33,306 nucleotides of DNA from an uncultured Bacilli bacterium. Lineage in GTDB: Bacteria; Bacillota_I; Bacilli_A; RFN20; CAG-826. The stretch covers positions 1-33,306 of the forward strand of contig CALVXH010000011.1 of NCBI GenBank assembly GCA_944368945.1, in the 5' to 3' direction. Positions 3,792-31,701 of the stretch are shown in pieces (position 1 is the first letter of the stretch; each line of letters begins with the position of its first letter). Both the position numbers and the translations under genes were made by a program. A model generated the notes under the pieces. That model had not been told where the DNA came from. It saw nothing but the letters and a program-made list of their open reading frames with translations, and ran no database searches.

Positions 3792-6700
3792 ATGAAAACA
3801 AAAATAACAAGATACAAGAAACTTTATAGAGTTCTTGCCTCTACATTTCTTCTTACAGGGATTTTAGGTGTAAGTGGTCAAATTGTTACGCAAGAATGGA
3901 GTACCTACATAAATAAGTATTTAGGTATTTCTGGAACACAAGTAGTTCCATCTGAAGATAGTCAAGAAGATCCAACACATTTTAAGAGTGATTTTAGTTC
4001 TTATACAGAAGTTAGAGATCATGCAAGAGATGTAGCTAGAGAAGTTCAAGCTGAAGGAACTGTTTTAATGACAAATAAAAATAAGGCTTTACCTTTAGCA
4101 AAAGGGTCAAAAGTTACATTCTTGTCATATTCAACAGTTGATATCGCTTATGGTGGAACTGGAAGTGGCGGTGTTACGGCTAGTGAAGAGCGTGAAACTA
4201 ATTTATTAAAGGCTGCCACTAAAGATAATCGTTTGGATATGAACGAAACAATTTATGATTTCTATAATGATCAACTTGCTTCAGGATACGAAGCTAAAGA
4301 TGGTGCTATTACTAGAAAAGAAGGTGGAGGATGGGGTGCAAACGCAACTCCTGTATCCTATCAAGCACCTGAAATTAATCCAAGCAAATTTACAAGTGAA
4401 GTTACTGAAAGTTTTAATACTTATAAAGACGCTGCAATTTTTGTTTTAACAAGAATTGGTGGTGAAGGAAATGATTTATTAAATAGTGGTGACAATGCAG
4501 ATAGTAACTATTTACAATTAACAGATGATGAAAAGGCAGTTCTTCAAGCGATGAAGGATGGTCCATTTACAAAGCGTATTGTTTTAGTTAATACATTTAA
4601 TACACCTGAATTAGATTGGCTTGATGAATATAACATTGATGCTTGTTTATATATTGGTGGTCCTGGTGAAGTTGGACTTGATTCTGTTGTTGATATTCTT
4701 GTTGGAAATGTTAATCCAAGTGGAAAACTTGCTGATACATATGCAACTAGTAGCTTTTCATCACCTGCAATGCAAAATTTTGGCGAATTTGAATTTGCAA
4801 ATTCGAGTGAAGTAACAAATCCAGATAGTAAAAAGTATTTAATGTATAATGAAGGCATTTATGTTGGATATAGATATTATGAAACAAGATATGAAGATCA
4901 AGTTTTAAATAGATATAATGCAACAAGTGCAAAAGGAAGCTATGCATCAAATGGTGGATGGAATTATGCTGATGAAGTTCAATTTTCATTTGGATATGGG
5001 TTAAGTTACACTACGTTTGAACAAAAATTTGATAGTTTATCAGTTAACGAAGCAGAAAAGACTGCAGAAATCAAAGTAAGTGTTAAAAATACTGGTTCTG
5101 TTGCAGGCAAAGATGTAGTAGAAATTTATGCTCAAGCACCTTATTATGAAGATGGCGTTGAAAAGAGTGCAATTCAACTTTGTGGTTTCTATAAAACAGA
5201 AGTTATTGAGCCTAATGTAACAAAGCAAATTACATATACTGTAGATTTAAATGATATTGCAAGTTATGATTATGAAAATAATAAAACATACATTTTAGAT
5301 GAAGGTACATATTATTTTTCAATTGGAAATGGAGCTCATGAAGCATTAAATAATATTCTTTTAGCTAAAGATGCAACATTGCCAACAGGTGAAAGTGGAA
5401 ATGAGGCAAATGCTAAAATTTGGAATAAAGGTTCATTTAATAAAGATGAATACTCTTTAAGCAAGACAAATAGAAAAGTTACAAATCAATTTGATGATGT
5501 CAATATTAATTACTATAAGACTGGTGAAGACGATATAGTTACTTACCTTTCTAGAAGTGATTGGGATAAGACATGGCCTGAAAATATGACTGGCTTTAGC
5601 GCTCCTGAAAAAATGCTTAGCGATATTAGTAGTTTATATGATGCTAATAATAATCCATCAGCTTATGAAAAAGGTGATAGTGATATTAGTAGTATTACAA
5701 CTGGATCAACAGCAACCTCTTATAATATTGCAATGATGATTGGGGTAGATTATGATGATTCAACTTGGGACGATTTACTTGACCAAATCACTATAGATGA
5801 AATGGCAGATTTCACTAGACAGGGAAGAGTTGCAATTCCATCAGTTAATCAGCCTGAAACGACAGCTGTTGATGGTCCTGCTGCTTGGACAAAATCATCT
5901 TATTATGAAAAATATGACGATTATGGCAATTTGAAAAAGACAAATGAAGCAATGGTTTTATACCCAACTGAAACAGTTATTGCTTCAACATGGAATGTTG
6001 ATTTAACACACAAAGTAGGTCTTTCATTTGGTGAAGAAGGCTTATGGGGTGGCGGTGTTGGCTGGTATGGTCCAGGTGCAAACATCCATAGAACTCCATT
6101 TAGTGGAAGAAATTTTGAATACTATAGTGAAGATGGCTTTATTAGTGGAAAACTTGCAGAAGCTGAAACTAAAGGAGCAATGGAAAAGGGCGTTATTCCT
6201 TACTTAAAGCATTTCTTCTTAAATGATCAAGAAACAAACAGAATTGGTGTTTGCACATTCTCAAACGAACAAGCATTAAGAGAAATTTACTTACGTGGAT
6301 TCCAATATGCTTTTGAAACAACAGGTGAAGACGATAAAGCTTGTACTGGTGTTATGGGAGCATTTAATAGATTAGGTGTTACTTGGACAGGACATGATTC
6401 TAATCTTTGGAAGAACGTCATGGAAACAGAATGGGGCTTTACAGGCAACATTACTACTGACTTTGGGCAAAAGCCACAATCATTAATGGAACCTCAACTT
6501 GCTTTAGAAGCAGGTACAACAATGTTCTGTACAAGTGGAACAAGTATGTCATCAATTCTTGCAGAAAGAGCAAAATCAGATGTTAAATTACTTGGATATT
6601 TAAGAGAAGCAACTCATAGAAATCTTTATAATATGGCTAATTCACTAGCTATGAATGGCTTAACTTCAGATTCTAAAGTTATCGATGTTGTAACTTGGTA

Positions 6701-6800
6701 TGAGGGAGCAATAATTGGTGTAATTAGTGCTTCAGCAGTAATTGCAGCAGCTTCATTAGCCTTACTTGGTTATTCAACATTCAAAAAGGAGGAAGAATAA
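3792..6800 (+). CDS. Domain-swapped glycoside hydrolase family 3 enzyme with N- and C-terminal membrane anchors
   Basis: 1002 residues with a good ribosome binding site (AGAAGGAAA). Order of parts: N-terminal membrane segment (about 13-33); the GH3 C-terminal alpha/beta sandwich (about 75-360; EGTVLMTNKNKALPL, GGPGEVGLDSVVDIL, NPSGKLADT); a Y-E-T-R/FGYGLSYTTF segment near 399; an Fn3-like domain (about 410-520); then the GH3 barrel (about 665-955). The barrel has D694-G-P, K806-H807-F and ITTD890F, where D890 is the expected nucleophile. E225 in GGEGND is a candidate acid/base. A last membrane helix (about 971-997) ends in FKKEEE. Sandwich-before-barrel order is known in some GH3 beta-glucosidases, for example of rumen Firmicutes. 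Anchors at both ends are less usual. It likely cleaves beta-linked oligosaccharides at the cell surface. The sugar is not predictable. Confidence 0.9.
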   Translation: MKTKITRYKKLYRVLASTFLLTGILGVSGQIVTQEWSTYINKYLGISGTQVVPSEDSQEDPTHFKSDFSSYTEVRDHARDVAREVQAEGTVLMTNKNKALPLAKGSKVTFLSYSTVDIAYGGTGSGGVTASEERETNLLKAATKDNRLDMNETIYDFYNDQLASGYEAKDGAITRKEGGGWGANATPVSYQAPEINPSKFTSEVTESFNTYKDAAIFVLTRIGGEGNDLLNSGDNADSNYLQLTDDEKAVLQAMKDGPFTKRIVLVNTFNTPELDWLDEYNIDACLYIGGPGEVGLDSVVDILVGNVNPSGKLADTYATSSFSSPAMQNFGEFEFANSSEVTNPDSKKYLMYNEGIYVGYRYYETRYEDQVLNRYNATSAKGSYASNGGWNYADEVQFSFGYGLSYTTFEQKFDSLSVNEAEKTAEIKVSVKNTGSVAGKDVVEIYAQAPYYEDGVEKSAIQLCGFYKTEVIEPNVTKQITYTVDLNDIASYDYENNKTYILDEGTYYFSIGNGAHEALNNILLAKDATLPTGESGNEANAKIWNKGSFNKDEYSLSKTNRKVTNQFDDVNINYYKTGEDDIVTYLSRSDWDKTWPENMTGFSAPEKMLSDISSLYDANNNPSAYEKGDSDISSITTGSTATSYNIAMMIGVDYDDSTWDDLLDQITIDEMADFTRQGRVAIPSVNQPETTAVDGPAAWTKSSYYEKYDDYGNLKKTNEAMVLYPTETVIASTWNVDLTHKVGLSFGEEGLWGGGVGWYGPGANIHRTPFSGRNFEYYSEDGFISGKLAEAETKGAMEKGVIPYLKHFFLNDQETNRIGVCTFSNEQALREIYLRGFQYAFETTGEDDKACTGVMGAFNRLGVTWTGHDSNLWKNVMETEWGFTGNITTDFGQKPQSLMEPQLALEAGTTMFCTSGTSMSSILAERAKSDVKLLGYLREATHRNLYNMANSLAMNGLTSDSKVIDVVTWYEGAIIGVISASAVIAAASLALLGYSTFKKEEE

Positions 6801-10733: not shown

Positions 10734-10739
10734 GTCGTT

Positions 10740-10745
10740 ATTATA
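10740..10745 (-). promoter_or_regulatory. -10 element, possibly leaderless
   Basis: On the minus strand TATAAT is followed by AACGAC and then ATG at 10733. The expected transcription start falls on or next to the ATG. No convincing -35 or extended TG is visible. Confidence 0.4.
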
Positions 10746-10906
10746 ATTTTAAAAATGAAATAAAAAACGACAAATATTGCATATAGTGTAGTATTTTAAA
10801 ATATTTACACATGAAATTAATAACGATTTCAAACGAAAGTAAAGTAATTTACTAAATTAAATAAAAGTAAAATATTAATTTTTTATTAAGGTTATTTAAA
10901 TTTTAA

Positions 10907-10934
10907 TTAACTAATGAAAAATTAAAATCATAAT
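10907..10934 (+). promoter_or_regulatory. Candidate promoter of the five-gene surface operon
   Basis: TTAACT (10907-10912), a 16-bp spacer and CATAAT (10929-10934) give a start near 10941, just before the ribosome binding site AGAGGAAAA. Matches are partial and the region is very AT-rich. A short palindrome AGTAA-T-TTACT lies upstream near 10840-10855. Confidence 0.3.
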
Positions 10935-10954
10935 AGTCACAAGAGGAAAATTTT

Positions 10955-13192
10955 ATGTGGAAAAAAAGAATTCATAAGAATTTTAGATTATTTTTTTGTG
11001 CATCTTTTTTAGGCTTATTGCCTTTAACTTCGTGCAGTGAAACGATTGTAGAAACTCGAAAAAGTTTTTCATTTCAAGACAATTCTATTGATTTATTAGT
11101 TGGTAATTCTTTAGAAGTAAATGTTAATGCAAGTAAAGATATTAACTTATTGCAGGACATTAAATACACATTTAACGGAGAAGATGAATTAACGCTTGAA
11201 AACACTGCGACTGGATTAAAAATTACTGGTAATAAGGAAGGAAGTTATTTAGTAAACGCTTCTTATGTAGATGATGAAAAAATCATTAGTTCATTACTGG
11301 TAAATGTAAATAGCGAAAGTGTAACCTACGAATATAAATTAAATTTAGATATCTCAGCTACTAAAGTTAAATATTTAAAAGGTGAAGAATTTTCTTCAAA
11401 GGGATTAAAAGTTTACGCTTCCTTGTATGAAAATGGTGTAGAAATTTCTGATTATAAATTTTATTTAGAAAACTACACTTTAAACTTCGATGAAGGCCAA
11501 AAGCTTGATGAAATTGGAGAATTTGATGTAACGATTAATTGCGATCCTTATGGAACAACTTCATATAAAATTAATGTTAGTGAATCACTTAATGAGATAA
11601 GTTATGCAATTGATACCACTAATATGAGCACCACTTATAAAAGAGGTCAAATATTTTCTACTTATGGATTAAAAGTATATAAAGTTAATACATTATATTC
11701 ATTAGATGATTCTAATAATATAGTTACTTCTTCAGATAAAGAAGAAGTAACTTCATTTACTACATCTATAGTTAATGGTACAAAATTGGATACTGATGGA
11801 ATTATTGAAGTAGGTGTAAGTGGGGAAGGATTTGATGAAAAATTTAAAATTATAGTTTATGAAGACGATACGACTATAAAAGATGTTGCTAATAAATATA
11901 TAAATACTAAAAATATAGGTTTGAAAGTTCAATCCACAATTGCTACTAAGACAGATTATTTAGGTTTTAATAAATTAATTACTTATAAACCTAACTATGT
12001 AGATATTAAAGAGTATAAAAAAGAATCTAGAGACGATTTTTCTTCTAGTGAAGTAAGTAAAGAAAGTGGAATGATAAAAGACGCAAATGATAATTCATTT
12101 ACTTATGAAATTATAGATAACAAAGTTACCCCTTTAGATCTAATAAAACAAGATACAACTAATATTTGGGATGATTTAATGTATGGGGATATTATTACTT
12201 TTAAGGCTTTCAATATTAAAGATTTTCCAACAATTACATTAAAAAATGATGCTCATTATTATATTGAAGAATTTGAAGTAGGTTCAATTAATGAAACTAC
12301 AATTAGTACATATCCATTATTAGAAGCAGCATTTAAATTAGCCAATATGGATACATCATTATATGAATTTGTTTCTAGCTTTGAAATTAATGTAGAAAAT
12401 GAACTAATTTCCATTAAAGTAAACGTTAAAAATTTTGGATATTTTGAAATTTCAACAATTCCACAAGCTGAAAATCTTGATGTTGATTTAGTAAATAAAG
12501 CCACAAAAGAAGGTGAATTTACTTTTAAAACAACAGTTGATCCAAATGTAACATCAATTATTGATTTAATGAAATTAAATAATTATACATTTGATACAGG
12601 AAATGGAATTATTCAATACTATAACGAAAATTATGTTTATACACATTATGATCCAATTTATATACTTGCAGGATTATCTTCAATTGGATATTTAAAAGTT
12701 GATCATCCTATCGGATCATTAACTAAAACAGGTATTTATTCATTTACAGCTAATGAAGACTCGGGTGAAATTTTAATTGATGAAACTAGTCTTAAACTTG
12801 TTTATGAAGATACAAATATAGTTAGTTATTCTTCGTTATTTACTAGTCTTGTGCCAGGATTCTTAACTAGTGAATTTGAATCTATCATTGGTAATGATTT
12901 ATCTTTAGCAACATTTAATATTATCGAAGGAACTACAAATGCTCTATTATCAACAAATGCCGATGTGAGCGAAGCATTTATGAATTTCTTCTTTGGGGAA
13001 GGAGAATCGGATAATAGAACAAATGCCATAAACTATGGCTATATTAATGGAGCAATGCTTTCAGGTGTTGATGAAAATGGAGATAGATTTATTAGCCTTA
13101 TGTGCGTAAATAAATCTCTATATGGTTACTCAAAAACATTAAATAAAGTCGGTTCAACTTATATTGATAGCATTGAACAAATTATTAAGTGA
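10955..13192 (+). CDS. Ig-like lipoprotein with tandem C-terminal domain, paralogue 1
   Basis: 745 residues. Lipobox L24-T25-S26-C27 predicts an outer-face lipoprotein. After an Ig-like region come two Big_3-type bacterial Ig domains: one with KVKYLKGEEFSSKGLKVYA (about 130-210) and one with TYKRGQIFSTYGLKVYKV (about 215-305). The C-terminal half holds two copies of a domain I do not recognise: the first from about 310, the second starting IIDLMKLNNYTFD (about 530). The same two-copy layout is found in the products of 13202 and 19387. AGAGGAAAA precedes the start. It is the first gene of a five-gene run; the next starts 9 bases after its TGA. A structural, binding or adhesive role is inferred. 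No catalytic motif seen. Confidence 0.8.
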   Translation: MWKKRIHKNFRLFFCASFLGLLPLTSCSETIVETRKSFSFQDNSIDLLVGNSLEVNVNASKDINLLQDIKYTFNGEDELTLENTATGLKITGNKEGSYLVNASYVDDEKIISSLLVNVNSESVTYEYKLNLDISATKVKYLKGEEFSSKGLKVYASLYENGVEISDYKFYLENYTLNFDEGQKLDEIGEFDVTINCDPYGTTSYKINVSESLNEISYAIDTTNMSTTYKRGQIFSTYGLKVYKVNTLYSLDDSNNIVTSSDKEEVTSFTTSIVNGTKLDTDGIIEVGVSGEGFDEKFKIIVYEDDTTIKDVANKYINTKNIGLKVQSTIATKTDYLGFNKLITYKPNYVDIKEYKKESRDDFSSSEVSKESGMIKDANDNSFTYEIIDNKVTPLDLIKQDTTNIWDDLMYGDIITFKAFNIKDFPTITLKNDAHYYIEEFEVGSINETTISTYPLLEAAFKLANMDTSLYEFVSSFEINVENELISIKVNVKNFGYFEISTIPQAENLDVDLVNKATKEGEFTFKTTVDPNVTSIIDLMKLNNYTFDTGNGIIQYYNENYVYTHYDPIYILAGLSSIGYLKVDHPIGSLTKTGIYSFTANEDSGEILIDETSLKLVYEDTNIVSYSSLFTSLVPGFLTSEFESIIGNDLSLATFNIIEGTTNALLSTNADVSEAFMNFFFGEGESDNRTNAINYGYINGAMLSGVDENGDRFISLMCVNKSLYGYSKTLNKVGSTYIDSIEQIIK

Positions 13193-13201
13193 GGTGGGAA
13201 T

Positions 13202-15073
13202 ATGAGAAAGAAAAGAGTACTTGCTATTAGTAGTACATTATGTCTTACGTTAGGCGCACTTTCGTTATCTTCTTGTGATTCTACTGGTGATGTAATTAAT
13301 AGTGCGTTAGAGGATAATAAAATTTTATTAAGTGTTTCAAAAAACACTTTAAAAGTATCTGAAACCGTAACTATTGATGTTACTTGTAGTTATGACAAGT
13401 CAACACTTTTATGGGTAAGTGAAGATGAAAATGTTGTAACAGTTAATAACGGGGTAGTTACAGCAGTAGGCGAAGGAAAAGTTAAAGTTTATGTATATCC
13501 AAAAGAAAATTTTTACATTAGCTCATATGTAGAATTTGTTGTTAGTGGAGATACTAGTGAAGGCGAAGCAATAAAAACATTATCTATTGATACTACAAAT
13601 GTAAAAACTTCATATAGATTAGGCGAAACTTTGGACTTAACTGGATTAGTTGTAAAAGTAGATGGCGAAGAAGTTAGTGATTATTCTACAAACCCTAGAA
13701 GTGGAACAACATTACAAGTTCTTGGCGAATTGGAGGTTGTTGTCTCTCATAGTGGTTGCGAGTCTCAATCATTTACCATTACTGTTGAAGAAAACCCTGT
13801 TGATACAACTTTATTAGATTTAGTTACTAAATTAGGAGAAACTAAAAACTATAATTTTAATTCAACATTGACAGGTCCATTCTTAAATGAAGAAACAGGT
13901 CAAGTTGAAGAAGGGTCAATGAGTTATGATTATACATTTAATGAAGATAAATTCTATTTAAAAATAACTGCATTTGACGAAGTTTTTGATGGATATGACT
14001 TTGGTTACGTTAATACAGAAAAAGGCGTTCTTAAATACACAATTGTTGATGAAATTGTAACTCCTATCTGTTACGAATCGCATGAAAATTTTGATTATAG
14101 AGAAGTTTCAGCATACAAAGATGAAAATGTCTTTACTTTAGAAGGAATGCCAGTTAGACAAACTAACGGATATTACTTAGTAACAGATTCTGATTTAATT
14201 AATGAGATTGTTGCGTGTGCTGATGCTAACTCTTCAATTGTTTATAGCACAATGAAATCTGTTAAAGGCTATGTATTAGGCGAAGATTCATTTAAATTTG
14301 TTGTTGATTGTGGAAGTGTTGGTGAACTTGATGTCACATTTAGTAGTATTGGTACTGCTGATGTAGCTGGAGTTGATGCGTATTTAGAAGAAAATGGATC
14401 AGATATTGAAGTAAGTGATGATTTAACCGCCATTATGGATAAGGTTAACGCAAATAATTATACATATACATATTCTTATAAAGATGAAAATAATAATAGT
14501 GCATTAATGGCGACTGCTTATATGACTGATTCATACTATGTAATCGTTTATTCAGATGAGTATCTTGAATTTTTCAAGAAGACTCATCCAACTGAAACTT
14601 TACCAGTAAGTACAGGCAAATTGCTTAAAGATGATAAAGTATATGATTTAACTATTACTAAAGATACAGAAGGTGAAGTTACTGTTACTTCTACTGAATC
14701 AAGTGATGATCCTACAACATTTCATCAAGATGGAGGGTATTTCTCTTCATTCCCTGCATTAGAAGATGCTAATGCTGATATGTATACATATGAAGAAATT
14801 CCTGAATTAGGAGCAGAAGGATTTACCGTTTCAGGTGATAGTTTATCTTATGATTTCTTTGAGTGGTTTGGCTACTCGTTAGAAACAACTGGATTAGTAC
14901 CATTTAAATTTGGTTTCTATTATTCAAAAGGTGTAACAGAAGCATTAGATCAACTTTATTTGCTTGAAGTTACATTTGATTTAACTGGTAAATATTATAC
15001 GTTAGGTTTAGTTTTATCTAACCTTGGAACAACAAGTTACAAACCTGTTGAAGATTATATGGCAACATTATAA
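13202..15073 (+). CDS. Ig-like lipoprotein with tandem C-terminal domain, paralogue 2
   Basis: 623 residues. Lipobox L22-S23-S24-C25. A Big_2 domain (about 40-115; WVSEDENVVTVNNGVVTAVG) is followed by a Big_3 domain (about 124-199; SYRLGETLDLTGLVVKVDG). Two related units follow: unit 1 begins LLDLVTKLGETKNYNFNS (about 203) and ends FSSIGTADVAGVDAYLEEN (about 396); unit 2 begins AIMDKVNANNYTYTYSY (about 412) and ends SNLGTTSYKPVEDYM at the C-terminus. The shared start and end signatures show internal duplication. GAGGTGGG overlaps the stop of the previous gene and gives a strong ribosome binding site. Function unknown; surface binding inferred. Confidence 0.82.
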   Translation: MRKKRVLAISSTLCLTLGALSLSSCDSTGDVINSALEDNKILLSVSKNTLKVSETVTIDVTCSYDKSTLLWVSEDENVVTVNNGVVTAVGEGKVKVYVYPKENFYISSYVEFVVSGDTSEGEAIKTLSIDTTNVKTSYRLGETLDLTGLVVKVDGEEVSDYSTNPRSGTTLQVLGELEVVVSHSGCESQSFTITVEENPVDTTLLDLVTKLGETKNYNFNSTLTGPFLNEETGQVEEGSMSYDYTFNEDKFYLKITAFDEVFDGYDFGYVNTEKGVLKYTIVDEIVTPICYESHENFDYREVSAYKDENVFTLEGMPVRQTNGYYLVTDSDLINEIVACADANSSIVYSTMKSVKGYVLGEDSFKFVVDCGSVGELDVTFSSIGTADVAGVDAYLEENGSDIEVSDDLTAIMDKVNANNYTYTYSYKDENNNSALMATAYMTDSYYVIVYSDEYLEFFKKTHPTETLPVSTGKLLKDDKVYDLTITKDTEGEVTVTSTESSDDPTTFHQDGGYFSSFPALEDANADMYTYEEIPELGAEGFTVSGDSLSYDFFEWFGYSLETTGLVPFKFGFYYSKGVTEALDQLYLLEVTFDLTGKYYTLGLVLSNLGTTSYKPVEDYMATL

Positions 15074-15090
15074 AAAGGAGATGTTTATTT

Positions 15091-17343
15091 ATGAAAAAGA
15101 CGATTAAAGTATTAGCTCTTTCTAGCTTGCTTACATTTGCAGCGTTGCCAACAGTTTCATCTTGTACTACAGAAGATGCAATTGACATATTTTCAAAAAT
15201 TGATAGCCCAATTGTAATTAGTGGTATGAAATCACTAAAACCAGGTGAGACTTGCACACTTATTGCTAATTTTGCGGGCGAAAGTGAAGATGTTAAATGG
15301 CTATCAACATCTCCAGAAGTAGCAACTATTAGTGATGAAGGTGTTGTCACTGCAGTTAGTGCTGGTGAAACAGAAATTGTTTGTCAAGCATTAAGTGATG
15401 CTAAAACTAGAGGTATAGCTACAATCACTGTTTTACCTAGTGAAAGTGACGATGTTTCTGAATATGTAACTGTAACATTTGTTGATTATGATGGCACTGT
15501 GCTTGATGAAATGATAGTTAAAAAAGGCACTGTGCCTGAATATAAAGGAAAAAACCCAACAAGAATTAGCGACTCAGATAATTCATATGCCTTTGCAGGT
15601 TGGGATAAAGAATTTGGTGCAATAAATTCAGATACAACATATACAGCTGTATATGATCCAATTCCATTAACAGATTTTGAATTTGCTGTTGATATTGTTC
15701 ATGGTGGATATATGGTCACTGGATATAGTGGAACAAGTACTGAAATTGAAATTCCAGCAACATTTGCATTTAGAAAAGTTTCTTCCATTGGTGATGGAGC
15801 ATTCTCAGGAAATACAACACTTACCAAAGTAACTTTGCCAGAAGGATTAATTTATATTGGCAAACAAGCATTCTATGGATGTACTGGTATTACTGATATG
15901 AATATTCCTCTTAGTGTGACAACTTTTGGCGCTGAAGCATTCTCAAATTGTTCTAGTTGGAAAACTAGTGTTGTTCTTGGAGATGGAGTCACTGATATTC
16001 CAGAAAACTGTTTCTATAACTGCTATTCATTGCCAAGAGTAGATGGCCATGAGAATTTACTTACTATTGGTAGAGCTGCATTTGGCAATTGCTATGTATT
16101 AGTCTTTGAATTTAGTGATAAGATTACACATATCGATGGCTTTGCTTTTGAAACTAATACAGCATTAATTCATGTTGAATTACCTGATAGTATTACATAT
16201 TTAGGTGAAAGTGTTTTCTGCCATTGTTCAGAAATGTTCACATTAAAGTTACCTAAAAATCTTGAAACAATAGATTATGAAAAAGGTGGCTATCAATCGT
16301 TAACATTAGGATGCAATTCTTTATATCAAATCACAATTGATGAATCCAACTCTAACTTTAAAACAGATGAAGGCAACGTTGGATTATATAGTAAAGATGG
16401 AAAGATTCTTTATACAGTTGCAGTTACTGGTACTGGAGAATATGACATTCTAGCTACATGTGAAGAAATTAAGGGAACTGCATTTTATAATTTTGCTGGT
16501 ACAAAAATTGTTATTCCAAGTTCAGTAAAACTTATTGATACATGGGCATTCTGGAATTCCGAAGTCGATGAGATTGTATTTGAGAATGGAGGTACTACAT
16601 TAGATATCTCTGATGATGCATTTGATGGTTGTAACAACTTAAAAACAGTTACATTACCAGACCATATGGTAGATATTCCAAATAATATGTTCAGAGATTG
16701 TGCTGGTCTAGAAGAAGTTGTTTTAAGCGATAAAACTGAGACTTTAGGAAACTATGTTTTCTATAATTGTGAAAGATTAAGTTCAATTACATTACCAGAA
16801 GGCTTGACTTCTATTGGAACATATTGCTTCTATGATACAGCTATTAAAGAAATTACAATTCCTGCTGGAGTCACAACGATTAATTCAAGTACTTTCTATA
16901 ATTGTACTGAATTAAAGAGTGTAACTTTCTTAGGAGATATAACTTCACTTGGAAGTAGTTCATTTAGTGGTGCTGGATTAGAAACATTTGATATCCCTGA
17001 TACAGTTACAAAAATTAATTCTTACGCATTTAGATATTGCGATCAATTAAAGTCTGTTGAATTACCAACTGCTTTAAAAGGAACATCTGCAATTTCATCT
17101 AACGCATTTACAAGTTGTACTGCTTTAGAAGAAATCACTTTTGGTCCAGGACTAAATGATGCTGAATTAGGTTCTTGGAGTTTAAATGTTCCTGCTAACA
17201 CATTTACTAATGATGCCAATATTAAAACTATTAACTTTAGAGGTAGTGAGGCTGCGTTTAGCAAAGTCACTGTAAAAGATACTAATTTACAAAAATTAGT
17301 TGCCAGTGGCCAAATTACAATTAACTTCAATTATGGAATGTAA
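15091..17343 (+). CDS. BspA-like leucine-rich-repeat lipoprotein with Big_2 and InlB-type repeat
   Basis: 750 residues. Lipobox V22-S23-S24-C25. A Big_2 domain (about 40-115; WLSTSPEVATISDEGVVTAV) is followed by an InlB B-repeat/Listeria-Bacteroides-type domain (about 126-190; VTFVDYDGTVLDE, FAGWDKEFG). From about 200 to the end run BspA-type LRR_5 repeats of about 23 residues with the signature I-x-x-x-A-F-x-x-C/N-x-x-L-x-x-V-x-L-P (for example IGKQAFYGCTGITDMNIP). This family is commonly surface-exposed and binds host or neighbouring-cell ligands. Start follows AAAGGAGATG at good spacing, 17 bases after the previous stop. No cell-wall sorting signal; anchoring is by lipid. Confidence 0.88.
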   Translation: MKKTIKVLALSSLLTFAALPTVSSCTTEDAIDIFSKIDSPIVISGMKSLKPGETCTLIANFAGESEDVKWLSTSPEVATISDEGVVTAVSAGETEIVCQALSDAKTRGIATITVLPSESDDVSEYVTVTFVDYDGTVLDEMIVKKGTVPEYKGKNPTRISDSDNSYAFAGWDKEFGAINSDTTYTAVYDPIPLTDFEFAVDIVHGGYMVTGYSGTSTEIEIPATFAFRKVSSIGDGAFSGNTTLTKVTLPEGLIYIGKQAFYGCTGITDMNIPLSVTTFGAEAFSNCSSWKTSVVLGDGVTDIPENCFYNCYSLPRVDGHENLLTIGRAAFGNCYVLVFEFSDKITHIDGFAFETNTALIHVELPDSITYLGESVFCHCSEMFTLKLPKNLETIDYEKGGYQSLTLGCNSLYQITIDESNSNFKTDEGNVGLYSKDGKILYTVAVTGTGEYDILATCEEIKGTAFYNFAGTKIVIPSSVKLIDTWAFWNSEVDEIVFENGGTTLDISDDAFDGCNNLKTVTLPDHMVDIPNNMFRDCAGLEEVVLSDKTETLGNYVFYNCERLSSITLPEGLTSIGTYCFYDTAIKEITIPAGVTTINSSTFYNCTELKSVTFLGDITSLGSSSFSGAGLETFDIPDTVTKINSYAFRYCDQLKSVELPTALKGTSAISSNAFTSCTALEEITFGPGLNDAELGSWSLNVPANTFTNDANIKTINFRGSEAAFSKVTVKDTNLQKLVASGQITINFNYGM

Positions 17344-17359
17344 TGGGAGGTAGAGGTTT

Positions 17360-19381
17360 ATGAAAAGAAAAAATAGAGTCGCTTTAGTTGGCCTATGTGC
17401 ATTATCTCTAGGTCTTATTGCTGGCTGGTCTAAACCATCAGCAGCAAGTGCAGCAGCTAGTGAAAATTCATCTGAAATGAGTGAAGATACATTATCACAA
17501 AGTGCGACTATTACAGGCAGTGATAAAATTGAAATCGGTGGTAGCACACAATTAGGCCTTTCATTATCTAATGTTAGTGCAGCCACATTTATTTGGGAAT
17601 CTTCCGATACAAGTGTTGCTACAGTTAAAGATGGTTTAGTAACTGGCTTAAAAGCTGGTACAGCAACAATTACTGTAACATGTGTAGAAGATTTATCTCT
17701 TGAAGCTACAAAAGAAATCACTGTTGTTAAAGATTTAGATGGAAAATATAAAGTAAGTTTTGTTGATTATGATGGAACATTATTATATGAAACCTATGTC
17801 GATGAAGGTGCTACAGTTACTTTTAAAGGCGAAGAACCTACTAGATTAAATTCAACAACAACATTATATTCATTTATTGGATGGGATCACGATTTAACTA
17901 ATATCACCGATAATACTTTAATTAAGGCTAAATATTCTGAGACAGATTTTAGTGATTATTTCTTTGAAGATCTAGGTACAACATATAAATTTATTGGATA
18001 TAGTGGTGAAGGTGATACTTTAACTATTCCTACTTCATTTAACGGAAGAGCAGTTACGGCAATTGGTAGCAATGTTATTAAGGGAAATACACATGTTAAA
18101 AAGGTAGTTATTCCTAAAGGAATTGATACTATTGATTCAAATGCTTTCTCAGATTCGGAAACACTTGAAGAAGTTAATATTCCAAGTACGGTTTATTATT
18201 TTGGAGAAAAAATCTTTTATCAATGCAGTGCACTAAAAACAGTTACTATTGAGGATGGAGTTACTTCAATTGCTGATGAAATGTTTAGATCGTGTAGCGC
18301 TTTAACATCTATTGAAATTCCAAATACTGTTACTAGGATTGGAGAGAATTCATTTTTTATGTCAGGCTTAACTGAACTAACAATTCCTGAATCTGTTACT
18401 GAAATTGGTCAAATGGCGTTCTCGAATTGTGCGAGTTTAGTAAAAGCAACGGTAAAAGCAAATATTGAAACATTGCCAAGTAGTTGCTTCTCATCTGATA
18501 AACAATTAACTACATTGGAACTTGATTGTCCTGTCGTTAAATTAGATACTGCAGCAGTAATGTCTTGTACAGCATTAACTGAAATTACTTTGCCAGACAC
18601 ACTTACTACGATTGGCGATAGAGCTTTCTCAGGATGCACAGCTTTAGCAACAATAACTTTAGGTAGTGGAACTACTGATTTTGGTGAAGATTCATTAAAT
18701 AATGTACCTGCCTTAAATGATGGCGGAGCAGGTATAAAACTTAAAGAAGATGATACAACTCACTCTATTGAAAATGGAATTCTTTATTCAAATAGCGGAA
18801 GTAAAATCTCTTTAGTTCTTGATGCCGCTAGTGTTCCAACCACATTAAATTTTAAAGAATTGGGTGTTACTGAAATTGGAAGTTTTGCTTTCTTAGATAT
18901 TACAACTATTACATCAATTTCACTTGATGGAGTTACATCTATTGGTGTTCATGCTTTTGATGGATGTAAAGGTGTAACTGGTGAACTTTTAATTCCCGAA
19001 AGTTGCGTTGATGTTGGTTTAGGTGCTTTTGAATATATGAGTGGTATTACAAGTATTAATATTCAAACATTATTTGGAGACACTAAGACAATTCCAGAAG
19101 AAATCTTTAGAAATTGTACAAGTGTAACTACAGCATCTATTCCAGATGGAATTGAGAAGATTAGTTTACGTGCATTTGGATGGATTGGTACTAAATTTAC
19201 AAGTGTTAATATTCCAAAGAGCGTAACTTATATTGGAAATTATGCTTTCCAAAGCAATTCAAAACTTATCATAACTTATGAAGGAACAGAGGAAGATTGG
19301 AAGAGTGTTACACTAGATGGCACATATGCTATTCCCAGTGCACAACAAAAAACAATGATCTTTGCCGGAGAAGGAGAATAA
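17360..19381 (+). CDS. BspA-like leucine-rich-repeat exported protein, lipobox Cys replaced by Trp
   Basis: 673 residues and a clear paralogue of the preceding gene: signal peptide, Big_2 domain (about 50-125; WESSDTSVATVKDGLVTGLK), InlB-type repeat (about 129-193; VSFVDYDGTLLYET, FIGWDHDL) and LRR_5 repeats to the C-terminus. The signal ends L19-I20-A21-G22-W23-S: a lipobox in all but the Cys, one base from TGC or TGT. An Ala-rich stretch (PSAASAAASE) supplies a signal-peptidase-I site near residue 33, so the protein is probably released or held by partners. No C-terminal anchor. GGGAGGTAGAGG precedes the start, 16 bases after the previous stop. Confidence 0.85.
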   Translation: MKRKNRVALVGLCALSLGLIAGWSKPSAASAAASENSSEMSEDTLSQSATITGSDKIEIGGSTQLGLSLSNVSAATFIWESSDTSVATVKDGLVTGLKAGTATITVTCVEDLSLEATKEITVVKDLDGKYKVSFVDYDGTLLYETYVDEGATVTFKGEEPTRLNSTTTLYSFIGWDHDLTNITDNTLIKAKYSETDFSDYFFEDLGTTYKFIGYSGEGDTLTIPTSFNGRAVTAIGSNVIKGNTHVKKVVIPKGIDTIDSNAFSDSETLEEVNIPSTVYYFGEKIFYQCSALKTVTIEDGVTSIADEMFRSCSALTSIEIPNTVTRIGENSFFMSGLTELTIPESVTEIGQMAFSNCASLVKATVKANIETLPSSCFSSDKQLTTLELDCPVVKLDTAAVMSCTALTEITLPDTLTTIGDRAFSGCTALATITLGSGTTDFGEDSLNNVPALNDGGAGIKLKEDDTTHSIENGILYSNSGSKISLVLDAASVPTTLNFKELGVTEIGSFAFLDITTITSISLDGVTSIGVHAFDGCKGVTGELLIPESCVDVGLGAFEYMSGITSINIQTLFGDTKTIPEEIFRNCTSVTTASIPDGIEKISLRAFGWIGTKFTSVNIPKSVTYIGNYAFQSNSKLIITYEGTEEDWKSVTLDGTYAIPSAQQKTMIFAGEGE

Positions 19382-19386
19382 CAAAA

Positions 19387-21126
19387 ATGCGACACGTTAA
19401 AAATTTATTAATATTGACTTTATTATTTGGTTCTGCAGGGTTTTTAACTAATTGTTCAACTAATATTACTTCTAGCGATACCATTAATGTATCGCTAGAT
19501 GAACCATATGTTAGTATGGGTATTAATGCGACTAAAGATATTGACATAGATGTAAATTTTGATGATGTCGCGATTTCAGTTGAAAATCAAGACTTAGTAA
19601 AGGCTTCATACTTTGAAAAGAAATTGACAATAATTTCTAATTCTAATGTTGGAACAACTAGAATCAAAGTATATAAGTCTAGTGATGAAAATATTTTTAA
19701 AGATATTTTAGTTACAGTAACTAAATCAACTACTACAAGTGAGTTAAGCATCTTAGACAGTGGTGAAACAACTTATAAAATTGGTGATAAATTTACAAGA
19801 AGTGGACTTGAAGTAGCTATTGTTACTAAGCAAGGAGACACAGTTTTAAATACATTAAGATTAGATGACTTTGAAGTATTTTTATCAATAGAAGACGGTA
19901 CTATTTTTACATCAACTGGGAAAAAAGTAATTTATGTTTCTACATTAGATGCCTCAATAAAACCAATTAGTTATGAAATTGAAGTTGTTGATGATAATCT
20001 TTATCCATTAAAAAGACTTACTAACTTATTATCTAGTAATAATTATTCAATGAGTTTTAAAACAAACTATAACTCAATATTAACTATTGATGGAAAATTA
20101 ATTTTTAATCCTAATTACTTCATCAATACTTATATGGATTTATGCTTTGCTAAAGATAACAATGGTGTGTTTAAGTATGAATATAATAATGGAGTAATTG
20201 GATCTTCAATTATCACTAAAAATGGTTATTTTACTGATTTAAAGTCTGATGATTTATATGATGCTGTTGGAATGTTTTCATCAACAGTTGGACTTAAAGA
20301 CTTTGAAGATGAATATTTTGATGATGTTATAGTAAGTGGATCAACATATACTTTTAAAAATAAGGAATTATTATCTTTATTTTGGAATGATACACTTGGA
20401 TTTAATGGGTCAGCCGATACATTAAATTTAAATGTTGAAGGTGATGCTATATCTTATGTTATTAGTGGAACGATTAGCAGCGGATTGGAATTAACTTTCG
20501 CAGGTACTATTTATGATATTGGAACAACAAGGGAAGCATCAATTGAAGCATATTTAAGTTCTTCACATAAGGTAAGTGAAGTAGGTGATCCAACTGTTAG
20601 TTCACTTGTTACTGAATTAAGAAAATGCAACTATACATATGCGGAAGATAATTTCACAATTTATGTAAATCCAAATTATGTTTACATTGAAGATTCAACT
20701 AGTGGAGGAAATGGTGAAGGCTTTATTGAACAAGATGATGGCGTATATAATTTTGTTGTTGAAAACGAAGTATTAACTTTAGAAGATAAAGTTAGTGATT
20801 TTGATTCAATTGAAGAAACTATTTATGACTTTAATAACTACTCGTTGTTTAAAGATGAAGAAATAAGTTCTTATTATGATTCAAGTTATTATGGTGGATA
20901 TATTAACTTTGACTATGAAGGATCACTAGAATTAATGACTAATTTCTTTGAATCATTTTATGGAAACTTATCTTCATATACCCCGTTTGGAACGATATTT
21001 AAGAGTGATTCTACATTATCTAATGCGGTGATGGATGTATATTTAGAGACTGCAAGTGGTGGCATGACTTATGTTGAAGGCAACTTCTTAAATATTGGTT
21101 CTACATCAGTGTCTTATATTAAATAA
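19387..21126 (+). CDS. Ig-like lipoprotein with tandem C-terminal domain, paralogue 3
   Basis: 579 residues from ATG 19387, five bases after the previous stop. GGAGAAGGAG inside the previous gene's end serves as ribosome binding site, and a longer in-frame reading from 19297 would put the signal peptide internally. Lipobox L20-T21-N22-C23. A degenerate Ig-like domain is followed by a Big_3 domain (about 118-200; TYKIGDKFTRSGLEVAIV). Two units then follow: unit 1 starts LKRLTNLLSSNNYSMSFK and ends YDIGTTREASIEAYLSS; unit 2 starts LVTELRKCNYTYA and ends FLNIGSTSVSYIK at the C-terminus. It is the last gene of the operon, before a strong terminator. Function unknown; surface role inferred. Confidence 0.82.
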   Translation: MRHVKNLLILTLLFGSAGFLTNCSTNITSSDTINVSLDEPYVSMGINATKDIDIDVNFDDVAISVENQDLVKASYFEKKLTIISNSNVGTTRIKVYKSSDENIFKDILVTVTKSTTTSELSILDSGETTYKIGDKFTRSGLEVAIVTKQGDTVLNTLRLDDFEVFLSIEDGTIFTSTGKKVIYVSTLDASIKPISYEIEVVDDNLYPLKRLTNLLSSNNYSMSFKTNYNSILTIDGKLIFNPNYFINTYMDLCFAKDNNGVFKYEYNNGVIGSSIITKNGYFTDLKSDDLYDAVGMFSSTVGLKDFEDEYFDDVIVSGSTYTFKNKELLSLFWNDTLGFNGSADTLNLNVEGDAISYVISGTISSGLELTFAGTIYDIGTTREASIEAYLSSSHKVSEVGDPTVSSLVTELRKCNYTYAEDNFTIYVNPNYVYIEDSTSGGNGEGFIEQDDGVYNFVVENEVLTLEDKVSDFDSIEETIYDFNNYSLFKDEEISSYYDSSYYGGYINFDYEGSLELMTNFFESFYGNLSSYTPFGTIFKSDSTLSNAVMDVYLETASGGMTYVEGNFLNIGSTSVSYIK

Positions 21127-21142
21127 AAATAATTAAATTTAT

Positions 21143-21175
21143 AAAGGAGATAGCCAAGAAAGTTGTCTCCTTTTT
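21143..21175 (+). terminator. Strong terminator of the five-gene operon
   Basis: A 12-bp stem (21143-21154 with 21162-21173, two G-U pairs) around a 7-nt loop, with TTTTT at 21171-21175. Confidence 0.9.
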
Positions 21176-21324: not shown

Positions 21325-21348
21325 TTTAAATGTTTGTGAGGAGTGAAA

Positions 21349-22599
21349 ATGAAAAAATATAAAGCAAAGCAAAAGAAAAGTTTATTAACGAAAATATTAA
21401 TTATTACTGGAACAGCCTTATTAGTTGTTGTAGTTGCTGGAGTCAGTACAGTATTTGGATTATGGGGAAATGAGATTGCTTCTATATGTTCTATTAAGAA
21501 AATTGACAATGCTGATCCATCTACCAATGCAGGACCAGTATATGAAATGAATATCTCTGGTGGATATTATTTTGATAAATTCGTTGAAAATGGTGGAGCT
21601 AGTAGTGATGATCAATTAATTGATTTTATTGTTGATAATATTTCGAAAGGAATTTTACCAATCAGTATGAAATCACCTACTATAGGATGTTCATCATTTA
21701 CTGCAATTAACGAAAAAGGTGAACGTTTATTTGGAAGAAATTATGATTTTAGCAAAACAACAAGCATGATAGTCCACGCTAATCCAGGTAATGGCAGACA
21801 TAAATCAATTTCATCAGTTGACTTAGAATTTTTAGGAATTACAAATGGTACTGAATTAACTTCTATTATGCAAAAAGCACTTTGCTTAGCAGCACCTTAC
21901 GCACCTTTAGATGGAATTAATGACGCAGGAGTTAGTTGCGGAATTTACATGTCATATCAAGGCGATAGTAATGGTACAGTTGTTGCTACTGACCAAGACA
22001 CTTCTAAACCTGATTTAACTTCAACAACTATGCTTAGATTAATTCTTGATTATGCTGATAATGTTGAAGAAGCAATTTCTTTAGTTGAACAATATGATTT
22101 ACATGACTCAGCAACAACATCATTCCATTATATGGTTGCTGATAAAACTGGAGCTAGTGCAATATTTGAATGGGTTGCAAATGATTCAAAAACAGATACA
22201 GATGGTTCGAAAAGAGAATTAAAAATCTATAGAAATGATGATGATGCAATTCTTGGAGAAAAAGAAGAAACAAATGATTTCCAATATATTACAAACTTTA
22301 TAGTTACTCCAAATTACTACACAAGTGATGAAGAGAAAAAAGGCCTTGATCGTTATGATCAAATTGAAAGTATGATAAATCCTGATGGAACAAATACTGA
22401 AGGCAAAATCACTGATGTAGAAGCGATGAATATTTTAAAAACGGTCGGAAGAAGAAATTGGAATTCATTAGAAGGTAGCCAAGACTCTAATAGTATTACT
22501 GTATGGTCAACCTTGTATAATTTAACAACATTAGAATCTACTTTTGTCCCAAATGAAAAATTTGATAATCCAAATTCGATTTTCAAATATAAGCTTTAA
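21349..22599 (+). CDS. Membrane-anchored Ntn hydrolase (acyl-coenzyme A:6-APA acyltransferase/choloylglycine-hydrolase type)
   Basis: 416 residues from ATG 21349, with GAGGAG five bases upstream. A basic N-terminus and one membrane helix (about 12-36) place the rest outside. The Ntn core begins at IGC114SSF, followed by GR130NYD133F; the C-R-D spacing (16 and 19) equals that of C2-R18-D21 in bile salt hydrolases. In this superfamily Cys becomes the catalytic N-terminus, and acyltransferase-type precursors cleave themselves at a Gly-Cys bond. G113-C114 is such a bond, so self-cleavage could release the enzyme from its anchor and 113-residue propeptide. Further conserved-looking parts are NDAGVSCGIYMS and HYMVADKTGASAIFEW. 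It would hydrolyse linear amides; the substrate is unknown. Monocistronic, with its own terminator. Confidence 0.8.
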   Translation: MKKYKAKQKKSLLTKILIITGTALLVVVVAGVSTVFGLWGNEIASICSIKKIDNADPSTNAGPVYEMNISGGYYFDKFVENGGASSDDQLIDFIVDNISKGILPISMKSPTIGCSSFTAINEKGERLFGRNYDFSKTTSMIVHANPGNGRHKSISSVDLEFLGITNGTELTSIMQKALCLAAPYAPLDGINDAGVSCGIYMSYQGDSNGTVVATDQDTSKPDLTSTTMLRLILDYADNVEEAISLVEQYDLHDSATTSFHYMVADKTGASAIFEWVANDSKTDTDGSKRELKIYRNDDDAILGEKEETNDFQYITNFIVTPNYYTSDEEKKGLDRYDQIESMINPDGTNTEGKITDVEAMNILKTVGRRNWNSLEGSQDSNSITVWSTLYNLTTLESTFVPNEKFDNPNSIFKYKL

Positions 22600-26715: not shown

Positions 26716-29700
26716 ATGAAAAAAGTGTTTAAATTTTTGCTTGCAGTATCATTACCATTCTTATTAGTTTCTTGTAATAGTGGCAGTAATGAAAATAATA
26801 GCGATAATAATTCTACTCAAAATCCTGATGAGGATACAAATACTGACGATACTACTAATAATGGTGAAAATAGTGGAAATGGAGATAATGTAGATAAAAC
26901 TATTCCTACTTATACTGGAATGAGTGTCTCCGATACAGTTGAAAAAACTGCTGTACCACAAGGGCAAATTAGAAAAGCCGCATCAACAAACTACGATTTT
27001 TATGTTCAAGCAAAATCAACTTTTTATATTGAAATTCACCTTGATAACCCTAGTCAATATGAAATTCTTTCGTTTACTTTAAATGATGTTAAATATCAAT
27101 CATATGAATTTAATAAAGGATCTAATTCTGAATTATTAATTTTAGAGGCAAAAGCTCCAGATACAGCAGGTAACAAAATATTTAACTTATCAAGTATTAA
27201 ATATGTTGATGGAGAAAGCATTAAAGATGTTGATTTAAGTAGTGCTAAAAGAAGCATTGACGTTGGCATTACATATGCTGAATTACCATCCGTTAATATA
27301 ATTAATGAAAATGTATCTTACACTTCTTATGATGCTTTATTTGATGTTGATGCTAAAGACATTCCTGATTTTAAATATGAATGTGTAATTTATGATGAAA
27401 ATAATAAGGAAGTTTCTTCTTTTTCTAGTGGTTCAACAACTTATAATTTGTCAGTTAAAGCTAATAAATTAAAGATGAATTCAACATATACTTATGAGTT
27501 TATTGGCACATTTGATTATTATGATGGAAAAGGAACTACTGAACATAGTTTTGGAGAAGGCACATTTACTACTTTAGATGGCGTTAAAATTATTAATGAA
27601 TCTGTAACATCGACTAGTTTTTCTTTTGAATATGACATTAAAGAACCATCTGTACAAATATCAAATATTTATTATGTAGATACAGTAGATTATACTCCTA
27701 CTAAATGTGATGTAAATAGTACTAATATAAGTGGATTAAAATCTAATAGAGATTATAACTTAAATGTTTCATATACATATGGTGAATTTAGTGGACATTT
27801 AGAAACTAACTTTAAGACTTTAGCAAAGCAACCTGGTAGTTACACTGTTAGTAATGTTACTCCAACTGCAAATAGTGTAAGTTTTAGTTTAAATATAGAT
27901 GATGAAGATGGTGCAACAAACATTTCTTCAATTACTTTATATGATGAAGAGACTGGTCAAAAGGTAAAAACTTTAACTAATACTACTAATCTAAGATTTA
28001 ATGATTTATATTCTAATCATAATTATAGAATAGAAGTTCTTTACTATAATAATTTAAATGATGGAAGCTCAAATCAATATTCTACTATAATCGAAACTTT
28101 CACCACATTAGCCAATACTGCTCCAAGCTATTCTTTTGTTTTAGGCAATACATCATATACAACAGCTGATATTTCATTTAATGAAAATGATCCTAGTGAT
28201 ATCGGAAATGTTGAAAGTTTTGAACTTTATAGAAATGATTCACTTGTTCCTGAACTAACAACAAAAACATTTGAAGAGATGTCAGAAAAATTAAAAAACC
28301 TTTATTCTGCATCGAAATATACTTTAAAAGCCAATTATTCTTATGATTTAAATGAAGGTGAAGGAGAAGTTGATAAATCTATTTTTATTGAATTTTATAC
28401 TTCTAAATATGATGCACCTACATTTAATATTAATGTTGAAAACATAGGATTTGATGATGTTTCATTTAGTATTAATCAAAGCGGATATGAAGATTTAATT
28501 TCGAAAACTTTAAAGGTAGTTAATAAAGAAACAGAAGAAGTTTTATATACCACTAATGAATTTGCTCTTAATAATAGTATTTTTGTTAATGGTTTAAATT
28601 CAAATTCAACTTATGAAATTATAATTGAGTATTCTTATGATTTAAATGATAGTAATGGAGTTATAAATCAAACTATAAGTAGTGAATTTACTACATCTAA
28701 ATATGATGCACCAAGTGTTGATTTAAACAATATGTCTATTGGCTTTAAATCGTTAAAATTTGATGTTCTTTTTGAAAATGCCCCAACAGTATTAAGCGCA
28801 TACTTGGAATTAATTGATAATGATACACAAGATGTTATAGCTAAATACGAAAATATAGAAGATGGACAACATTTTTTCATTGATTCTTTGAGTTCAAATC
28901 ATGAATATAAAGTAAAAGTAACATATGAATACAATCTAAATGATGGTAATGGAATTCAAGAAGGTGTTTATGAGAATGATTACTCGACCAAAGAATTATT
29001 AGATTATGATATTGACTTAATGATAACTGATGTTTCTGACACTTGGATTAATTTTAGGGTTGAATTAACGAACGAACAAAGTGTAATTACTCTTAATTAT
29101 GCAGAAATTCGTGATTATAAGACAAATGTTTTAGTTAATAGATGGGATATAAATTATAATTCAATTTATGATTATGGAGGAGGTGCAGTTGATTTATTAA
29201 GCAACCATAAGTACAAGCTTATTCTTTACTATTCTTTATTCTCAGCGGAAGGAATTAATGAACAACATAGTATTGAAGATGCTTTTACAACGAAAAGAAA
29301 TTATGAACCACAAATTTCACTATATTCCTGGTGCACCGGAGATAACTTTGTAACATTTTATTTCGGAGGTGGCACTGGATATCCAATTAAGTTTAATAGC
29401 GTTAGTTTGTATGATGAGAATGGAACTTTAATTGATACAAAATATAATTTTGGTAACAATTCTTATGCAACATTTAGAGATTTATTGCAAAATAAGACTT
29501 ATTATGCACAAGCTGAATATCAGTATGATTTACTTGATGGAAATGGTTTTTCAAGTCCACAAGTAACTGAAAAATCATATTTCACTACTAATTCGGGCCA
29601 TTCGTATCAAGCATGTGTTGAAAGTATTGGCAAAGATTTTGCCAATATTAAACTATATAATACTAACGAAATTGATAGTGTTATGACTCTAACCAGGGCT

Positions 29701-30723: not shown

Positions 30724-31701
30724 TTAAAATTCTTTTATAGATAATGTATTATTGATAGGGAAAACTAATAAATCTTTACCAACTTTTCTTTCTTCAGTAA
30801 GTGTAACTCTATTAATAGTATTAGAAAAATAAGTACGATATTGGTAGTAACCTTTTGTTAAATTCATAATTGCAGAATAAATAGTTGTATCAAATTTTCC
30901 TTCTTTAGTAGTAATTGCTCCATTAATCATTTTAACTGCATCTAAGACATTAAATAAATCAATGGTCATAATATCTTCATTGTCTTCTTTTGGAAGATGT
31001 TCTTTTAAAAAGGCAGCTTTTATAAATCTAGAAGGTGAAGAGTAATCTCCATTAATACCAAACATACCACTTCCTAAGGAGAATGGAGTTAATTTAAAGT
31101 TAGATGAAAATCTATTTTCTGGATAAGCATTAGTTAAATTTAAATATTGTCTAATATTTTCTTTATGAAATGGGAATGGAGGATTATTAGTTAATACATT
31201 AAATGGATTATCATAAACCTTTACATAGTTTTCATTAGTTTCAACAACAATACTTTGAGTGCCATCAGAAATTATCCAATGAAGTGGTGCTAAATCTAAG
31301 TTATCCATAAATTTAATATTTATTATATCTATATCTAATAGTAACTTCTTAGCTTCATCAACAGTTTTAGCTAATCCTAAAATATAAGGAATAAATTCAT
31401 ATGGAGTAATTAAATTTGATTTAGTTGCTTCGGTTATATCCTTGTATTTAGCTTGATTAGGAAAATTTAATCCAGCCATCGCTAAGCCATATTCATTAAA
31501 AGCATCAGCATATAATGGATAATTATTAATAACTGTAGCCATTCCTATAATTGCATAATGAGTCTTTAATGGATCATGCTTTTTAAATGTTAGATTATAG
31601 TTTCTAGGTGTAATAACGACTTCTTCATTAAAGTGATATTCGATATCCATATTTCTAGCAAAATAGGAATCATTATTTTTGTATGTAAATACTGTGCACA
31701 T
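30724..31701 (-). CDS. Choloylglycine hydrolase, bile-salt-hydrolase-like
   Basis: 325 residues, the family's usual length. Met removal exposes C2, the Ntn nucleophile (M-C-T). R16 and D19 in ARNMD, N79 in GLNF, N172 in VLTNN and R225 in PSRF correspond to active-site residues C2, R18, D21, N82, N175 and R228 of bifidobacterial bile salt hydrolase. Asn at the N82 position favours bile salt hydrolase over penicillin V acylase, which usually has Tyr there. It is cytosolic and would deconjugate glycine- or taurine-conjugated bile acids; other N-acyl amides are possible. Start follows AGAGGC, with an extended -10 promoter. Divergent from a MATE exporter, 81 bases between starts. A gut habitat is implied. 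Confidence 0.9.
   Translation of the reverse strand: MCTVFTYKNNDSYFARNMDIEYHFNEEVVITPRNYNLTFKKHDPLKTHYAIIGMATVINNYPLYADAFNEYGLAMAGLNFPNQAKYKDITEATKSNLITPYEFIPYILGLAKTVDEAKKLLLDIDIINIKFMDNLDLAPLHWIISDGTQSIVVETNENYVKVYDNPFNVLTNNPPFPFHKENIRQYLNLTNAYPENRFSSNFKLTPFSLGSGMFGINGDYSSPSRFIKAAFLKEHLPKEDNEDIMTIDLFNVLDAVKMINGAITTKEGKFDTTIYSAIMNLTKGYYQYRTYFSNTINRVTLTEERKVGKDLLVFPINNTLSIKEF

Follow-up and report, generated by a model that had tools for sequence, protein, structure and literature searches.

A conserved five-gene operon of putative Ig-like lipoproteins and leucine-rich repeat proteins in a gut Bacilli genus, apparently related to the accessory lipoproteins of a subtilase-importer locus

The DNA analysed here (the window) is a stretch of 33,306 nucleotides from an uncultured Bacilli bacterium of the RFN20 lineage (GenBank assembly GCA_944368945.1, contig CALVXH010000011.1). 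It is the entire contig 11 of a genome of 1.6 Mb in 131 contigs, 92.9% complete, which has the code G000 in our comparisons with other genomes of its genus. The window carries a five-gene operon whose products we call A, B, L1, L2 and A' in gene order (Table 1). An earlier reading, made from the letters alone (the sequence-only reading), had described five open reading frames on one strand, each with a strong ribosome binding site, forming one transcription unit for exported proteins without any enzyme. The coordinates, 10955-21126, the gene lengths and the gaps of 9, 17, 16 and 5 bases were all reproduced, and a purine-rich ribosome binding site lies at each of the five starts. The start of gene 5 is the ATG at 19387, and the mechanical list of open reading frames opens this gene at an upstream TTG at 19297. 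The short gaps and the terminator hairpin 3' of gene 5 indicate an apparent single unit; no hairpin was flagged between the five genes on the + strand. No enzyme was found among the five genes, and Pfam and NCBIfam matches revealed no protease or transporter gene within the unit. Signal peptides were recognized by eye in all five proteins, so that export stood as claimed, and the description was corrected to four lipoproteins and one protein, the gene 4 product, with an ordinary signal peptide. The lipobox cysteine of L2 is absent in G000 and G151 and present in G070, G137, G049 and G152. As L2 has no lipobox in G000, it may there be released from the cell or retained by its partner proteins.

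Table 1. Features of the five-gene operon and its borders in the window
Feature	Position (strand)	Length (residues)	Description
Upstream intergenic region	10734..10954 (+)		Presumed promoter region; the divergent gene across it ends at 10733
Gene 1, A	10955..13192 (+)	745	Lipoprotein; three Ig-like domains (residues ~38-304), then two C-terminal domains predicted to be LolA-like
Gene 2, B	13202..15073 (+)	623	Lipoprotein; A superfamily; N-terminus Big_2/Big_3-like
Gene 3, L1	15091..17343 (+)	750	Lipoprotein; Big_2 and BspA-type leucine-rich repeats
Gene 4, L2	17360..19381 (+)	673	Big_2 and BspA-type leucine-rich repeats; signal peptide without lipobox cysteine in G000
Gene 5, A'	19387..21126 (+)	579	Lipoprotein; A/B superfamily
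Hairpin terminator	21143..21173 (+)		12-pair stem, U-rich tail; -14.6 kcal/mol, z -4.4

The products of genes 3 and 4 are paralogues, as proposed (28% identity, E 4e-53). Both match LRR_5 (PF13306) far above its cut-off of 27.7 bits, gene 3 with 359.4 bits (E 6.6e-109) and gene 4 with 262.9 bits (E 4.6e-79), and both lie above the Pfam cut-off for Big_2, which gene 2 just misses. By these profile matches, they are BspA-type leucine-rich repeat (LRR) proteins with a Big_2 domain. They resemble the known BspA-type LRR surface proteins but are paired and embedded among A-type lipoproteins. The sequence-only reading had labelled them LRR/InlB proteins, and the InlB part of this label is not supported. 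The InlB B-repeat (PF09479 / TIGR02543) was dropped because no match in either gene exceeds the cut-off: Flg_new reaches 13.5 bits in gene 3 (E 0.081) against a cut-off of 27, gene 4 has no match, and NCBIfam gives none. What they share with the Listeria internalins is an LRR domain on an exported protein, whereas their repeats are of the BspA type, no B-repeat is confirmed, and they carry a lipoprotein or plain signal peptide.

The genes of the other family, 1, 2 and 5, are hardly alike in pairwise BLASTP comparisons (best E 2e-7, likeness only about 20%). Profile-profile alignments run end to end, with E values of 1.3e-38 for B against A, 3e-23 for A' against A and 8.7e-20 for A' against B, and this bears out the claim that they are paralogues of one architecture. 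The operon thus contains two paralogous families, in agreement with the proposal that it was built by duplication. Pfam and NCBIfam recognize only the Ig-like pieces of A, B and A'. When the six C-terminal domains of these proteins were searched singly, no LolA-type or other credible Pfam family matched up to E 10, and comparison of the two C-terminal domains with each other gave E 0.03 to 0.1, so that the sequence does not show an internal duplication. Matches to the A superfamily in most genomes of the order were not counted, as they are owed to the common Ig-like N-terminus. When the profile was limited to the C-terminal half, matches stayed within the genus except for three weak ones outside it (E 3e-4 to 6e-4), and one further weak match lay within it, in G026 (8e-5). 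Loci in G160, G172 and G044 are lipoprotein clusters in which single-sequence search revealed no LRR or subtilase homologue. No relatives of protein A were found in viral contigs or in a first scan of genome contigs.

To what extent the five genes belong together can be judged from the 26 genomes of the genus that were searched. The full set in the order A-B-L1-L2-A' is present in four of them (G000, G070, G137 and G049); A, B and A' of G070 are 59-63% identical to the window proteins, those of G137 and G049 27-35%. A shorter, three-gene form (B-L1-L2), which lacks A and A', was found in G151 and G152, the latter with a contig that stops inside L2, and G131 retains a broken remnant consisting of A' pieces with a stop and no other member. 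The linkage check thus found the families not scattered singly: the order is kept in four genomes and the core of genes 2, 3 and 4 in two more. As the same order recurs in three further genomes, the operon is more than a chance arrangement, and because the flanking genes are common only to G000 and G070, the conserved unit is the five genes. In a ribosomal-protein tree, which does not include G151, the carriers are scattered over several deep branches, so that on this evidence the set dates far back in the genus and was lost repeatedly or transferred in some cases. The L2 proteins of the four full sets are monophyletic in the protein tree and L1 has a weaker support of 0.82; the L2 proteins of G151 and G152 are not placed with the others. 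It could be argued that these are unrelated or interchangeable surface lipoproteins joined only by shared ancestry, which have no joint function and act mainly as variable surface antigens or decoys: the genus is rich in lipoprotein clusters of mixed composition, most species lack the set, and G131 has it in broken form. We consider this very unlikely, since the order is fixed, each of the five positions holds a single copy over deep divergence, and A, B and A' are each monophyletic. Nor were repeats or inversions of the phase-variation type seen, though no search was aimed at them.

The protein tree also links the operon to a second locus of the genus. A is sister to sA, an A-like lipoprotein of a subtilase-Opp locus (support 0.994), B comes next (0.947), and then A' and s727, a second lipoprotein of that locus, which belongs to the A superfamily with profile E values of 5.5e-24 to 3e-20. 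The right part of the locus is constant and consists of sA, a subtilase of 1400-1480 residues, a DUF3899 protein, a lipoprotein of about 1000 residues, OppB, OppC and OppDF. The left part is variable; s727 is encoded there, and G000 and G070 have in addition genes for an LRR lipoprotein and an M6 peptidase. Wherever both genes could be read, sA is directly upstream of the subtilase. The catalytic triad of the subtilase (D178/H265/S657) and the oxyanion residue N367 are invariant in 10 of 10 sequences, and among solved structures C5a peptidase and the cell envelope proteinases are its closest relatives. OppB, OppC and OppDF are supported by Pfam, with OppD and OppF fused into one protein of 1127-1365 residues except in G098, which has two open reading frames. 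The OppC-type permease is 711-816 residues long (L109 5879-8014 (-), L035 5357-7507, L037 3780-6203), and about 430 residues separate its OppC_N segment from the permease domain, probably a large extracytoplasmic insertion. The lipoprotein of about 1000 residues in the position of the binding protein (L035 1133-4126, L109 9259-12264) has 54-80% identity between genomes and a Big_2 N-terminus. It has no match to a binding-protein family, SBP_bac_5 included, in Pfam, NCBIfam or the PDB sequences, and the label OppA is therefore only positional.

A full set, the three-gene form or the remnant occurs in seven genomes, and all seven belong to the 11 (of 26) that have sA and the orthologous subtilase (Fisher 5e-4, or 2e-3 without the remnant, neither corrected for ancestry). 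Moreover, the five-gene operon of G137 directly adjoins the subtilase-Opp locus on its upstream side, and the A' remnant of G131 is placed likewise. More distant subtilase operons with DUF3899 are found in G026, G146, G155 and G085, with an OppA-like gene too where the stretch reaches that far. The lipoproteins of about 600 residues upstream of the divergent subtilase in G146 and G155 (L163 9160-10965, L164 11291-13114) have an A-like layout by eye; they were rejected as relatives because profile comparison matches the signal peptide only. From the relationships above, the operon is best read as an ancient paralogous offshoot of the accessory lipoproteins of this surface proteinase-importer locus. 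It shares with sA and s727 the superfamily, the Ig-like N-terminus, the two C-terminal domains and the company of an LRR lipoprotein, and it differs from the subtilase-Opp locus in having neither protease nor transporter and in combining two LRR genes and three A-type genes in a fixed order.

AlphaFold models give a first idea of what these lipoproteins may look like. For A, modelled with an alignment that includes 11 sA sequences, the mean confidence (pLDDT) is 64, with the last domain partly below 50. The model contains the three Ig-like domains. Structure comparison with this model covered its Ig-like part, of which the first domain matches solved Big-type domains with Z 9.9-11.1 and a root mean square deviation (rmsd) of 1.8-3.0 Å. 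The top Foldseek matches of this model (nuclear pore proteins and cadherins) were rejected, as they reflect the Ig fold or long alignments with an rmsd far above 10 Å, and the nucleoporin and PCNA matches of the sA model, as well as matches to viral structures, were rejected on the same grounds. The C-terminal half of sA from G137, modelled with ten relatives that include A, has a pLDDT of 87.8 and a predicted template modelling score of 0.82, and is built as two domains in which helices combine with antiparallel strands. In the PDB, the first domain is matched best by LprF (Z 9.1, 5.0 Å over 174 residues), LprG (Z 9.0, 4.7 Å over 165-174 residues) and LppX (Z 8.3), the three together spanning 4.7-5.3 Å, and next come Csa1A, LolA-type proteins, RseB and LolB. 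The second domain matches RseB only, with Z 5.6. The C-terminal half of sA would thus be two LolA/LprG-like half-barrels, an assignment that is moderate for the first and weak for the second, because according to the guide of the structure tool a Z below 8 may be mere resemblance. As the alignments of A, B and A' with sA span their full length, a LolA-like fold is predicted for them as well. The resemblance to LppX, LprG, LprF and the LolA superfamily consists of this fold (Z 8.3-9.1) and the lipid anchor; unlike them, the proteins studied here carry two tandem domains on an Ig-like stalk and have no detectable sequence relation to that group.

LprG and LppX carry lipids in mycobacteria, and on this model the operon would serve to capture and transfer lipids or amphiphiles: the heads of A, B and A' would pick up lipids, fatty acids or sterols in the gut lumen and deliver them to the membrane. 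The predicted loss of the cell wall speaks for this idea. The MraY family (PF00953) is absent in all 26 genomes, 20 of which are at least 90% complete, with the controls positive in 12 of 14; penicillin-binding transpeptidases are absent in 25 of 26, the exception being a bin with 4% contamination. The genus is therefore probably wall-less, and loss of wall genes has been reported for most RFN20 genomes (PMC7301438). A sortase gene is nevertheless present in the genome of the window (G000:C106:2613-2945). Bacteria without a wall often import lipids, and the best structural matches are lipid-carrying lipoproteins, first LprF, LprG and LppX and then LolA. Still, the fold match is distant (rmsd about 5 Å), was obtained on the sister protein sA and is weak for the second domain; single-domain Pfam searches show no sequence relation to lipid-carrier families, and the LRR partners and the subtilase association would be left unexplained. 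Lipid capture is therefore unlikely to be the main role.

Adhesion or ligand capture appears to be the best functional class for the operon, in which binding and assembly are predicted. The simplest form of this would be a pure adhesion apparatus, where the LRR proteins and Ig-like lipoproteins give the cell a hold on mucus, host tissue, feed particles or other microbes and have no nutritional role. BspA-type LRR and Big-type domains are typical of bacterial adhesins, the unit has no enzyme or transporter, and an identity of 27-35% between species points to the fast divergence that is common for exposed surface proteins. Such an apparatus gives no reason why gene 1 should be the sister of sA, why the operon should adjoin the subtilase locus in G137 or why the lipoproteins should have tandem LolA-like domains, and we regard it as somewhat unlikely. 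In the likeliest role, the array would capture extracellular protein or peptide material or attach to it, alongside the subtilase-Opp locus, and to this we assign a probability of about 0.4.

According to this proposal, A, B and A' would be anchored in the cytoplasmic membrane via their lipidated N-terminus, with the two or three Ig-like domains as a stalk and the two LolA-type half-barrels as binding heads. The two BspA-type LRR proteins would add a broad protein- or glycan-binding surface, and the five proteins may form one assembly that binds protein or peptide and serves the proteinase, as the outermost layer of a cell that probably has no peptidoglycan. The set would have arisen early in the genus from the protein families that accompany the subtilase and the Opp-type importer. 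Most likely alongside the subtilase locus, the array would hold the cell on, or gather, protein or peptide material, which the subtilase cuts and the importer takes up. The RF39 and RFN20 gut lineages lack several amino acid pathways and are thought to import oligopeptides (PMC7301438).

Several observations weigh against the proposed link of the operon to proteinase and importer. One clade of 11 genomes that has neither the set nor the subtilase explains much of the association. Most genomes of the genus do not carry the set, and in five of the six that do, it lies on a different contig from the subtilase locus. No promoter or regulatory motif common to the five-gene and the subtilase operons was found. 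G149 is outside the 11 genomes with an orthologous subtilase, yet its four-gene lipoprotein cluster (L106 3617-10334) contains two relatives of the C-terminal part of B (E 1.6e-20 and 1.4e-8). Finally, LolA-type folds are best known as lipid binders and not as peptide binders.

The sister locus resembles the lactococcal type of proteolytic system, which consists of a cell envelope proteinase, a maturation lipoprotein and an Opp importer, in that it has a C5a-peptidase-like subtilase and Opp-type permeases and ATPases. It differs in the protein of about 1000 residues in the binding-protein position, which does not match SBP_bac_5, and the five-gene operon itself has no such subtilase, permease or ATPase. 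We found no description of this gene set in the literature searched. As far as our searches reach, the combination of a lipid anchor, an Ig-like stalk and two LolA-type domains, the order of the five genes and the link with a surface subtilase are undescribed, while the individual parts are of known folds and families. The close form is restricted to a single genus, which limits how far the finding reaches.

Other genes in the window were also annotated. The gene at 3792-6800 encodes a glycoside hydrolase family 3 protein with a permuted order, in which the C-terminal domain precedes the N-terminal catalytic domain, and with an Fn3-like domain. Two genes, at 21343-22599 and 30724-31701, belong to the choloylglycine hydrolase/acyl-transferase family; the former has an N-terminal membrane segment by eye, and it follows the five-gene operon only in G000 and G070. 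The gene at 26716-30660 encodes a lipoprotein of 1314 residues whose sole Pfam match is a C-terminal C-type lectin domain, and a relative is also present downstream of the operon in G070 (L025 810-4763).

The superfamily described here is an undescribed group of lipoproteins with a recognizable predicted fold, tied to a surface proteinase-importer locus. A bolder proposal, and a rather improbable one, is that the tandem LolA-type half-barrels on their Ig-like stalks, together with the paired LRR proteins, take up amphiphilic peptides or lipids and pass them to the membrane or to the neighbouring protease-importer. If this is true, such a capture-and-hand-over machine would have no described counterpart in Gram-positive or wall-less bacteria. 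As the five proteins are defined, their soluble parts can be expressed and assayed for ligands. The acquisition of amino acids and lipids by uncultured, gene-poor and probably wall-less gut Bacilli is poorly known, and if the operon does capture extracellular protein or peptide material, it would give cells that lack both a wall and an outer membrane a surface for foraging.

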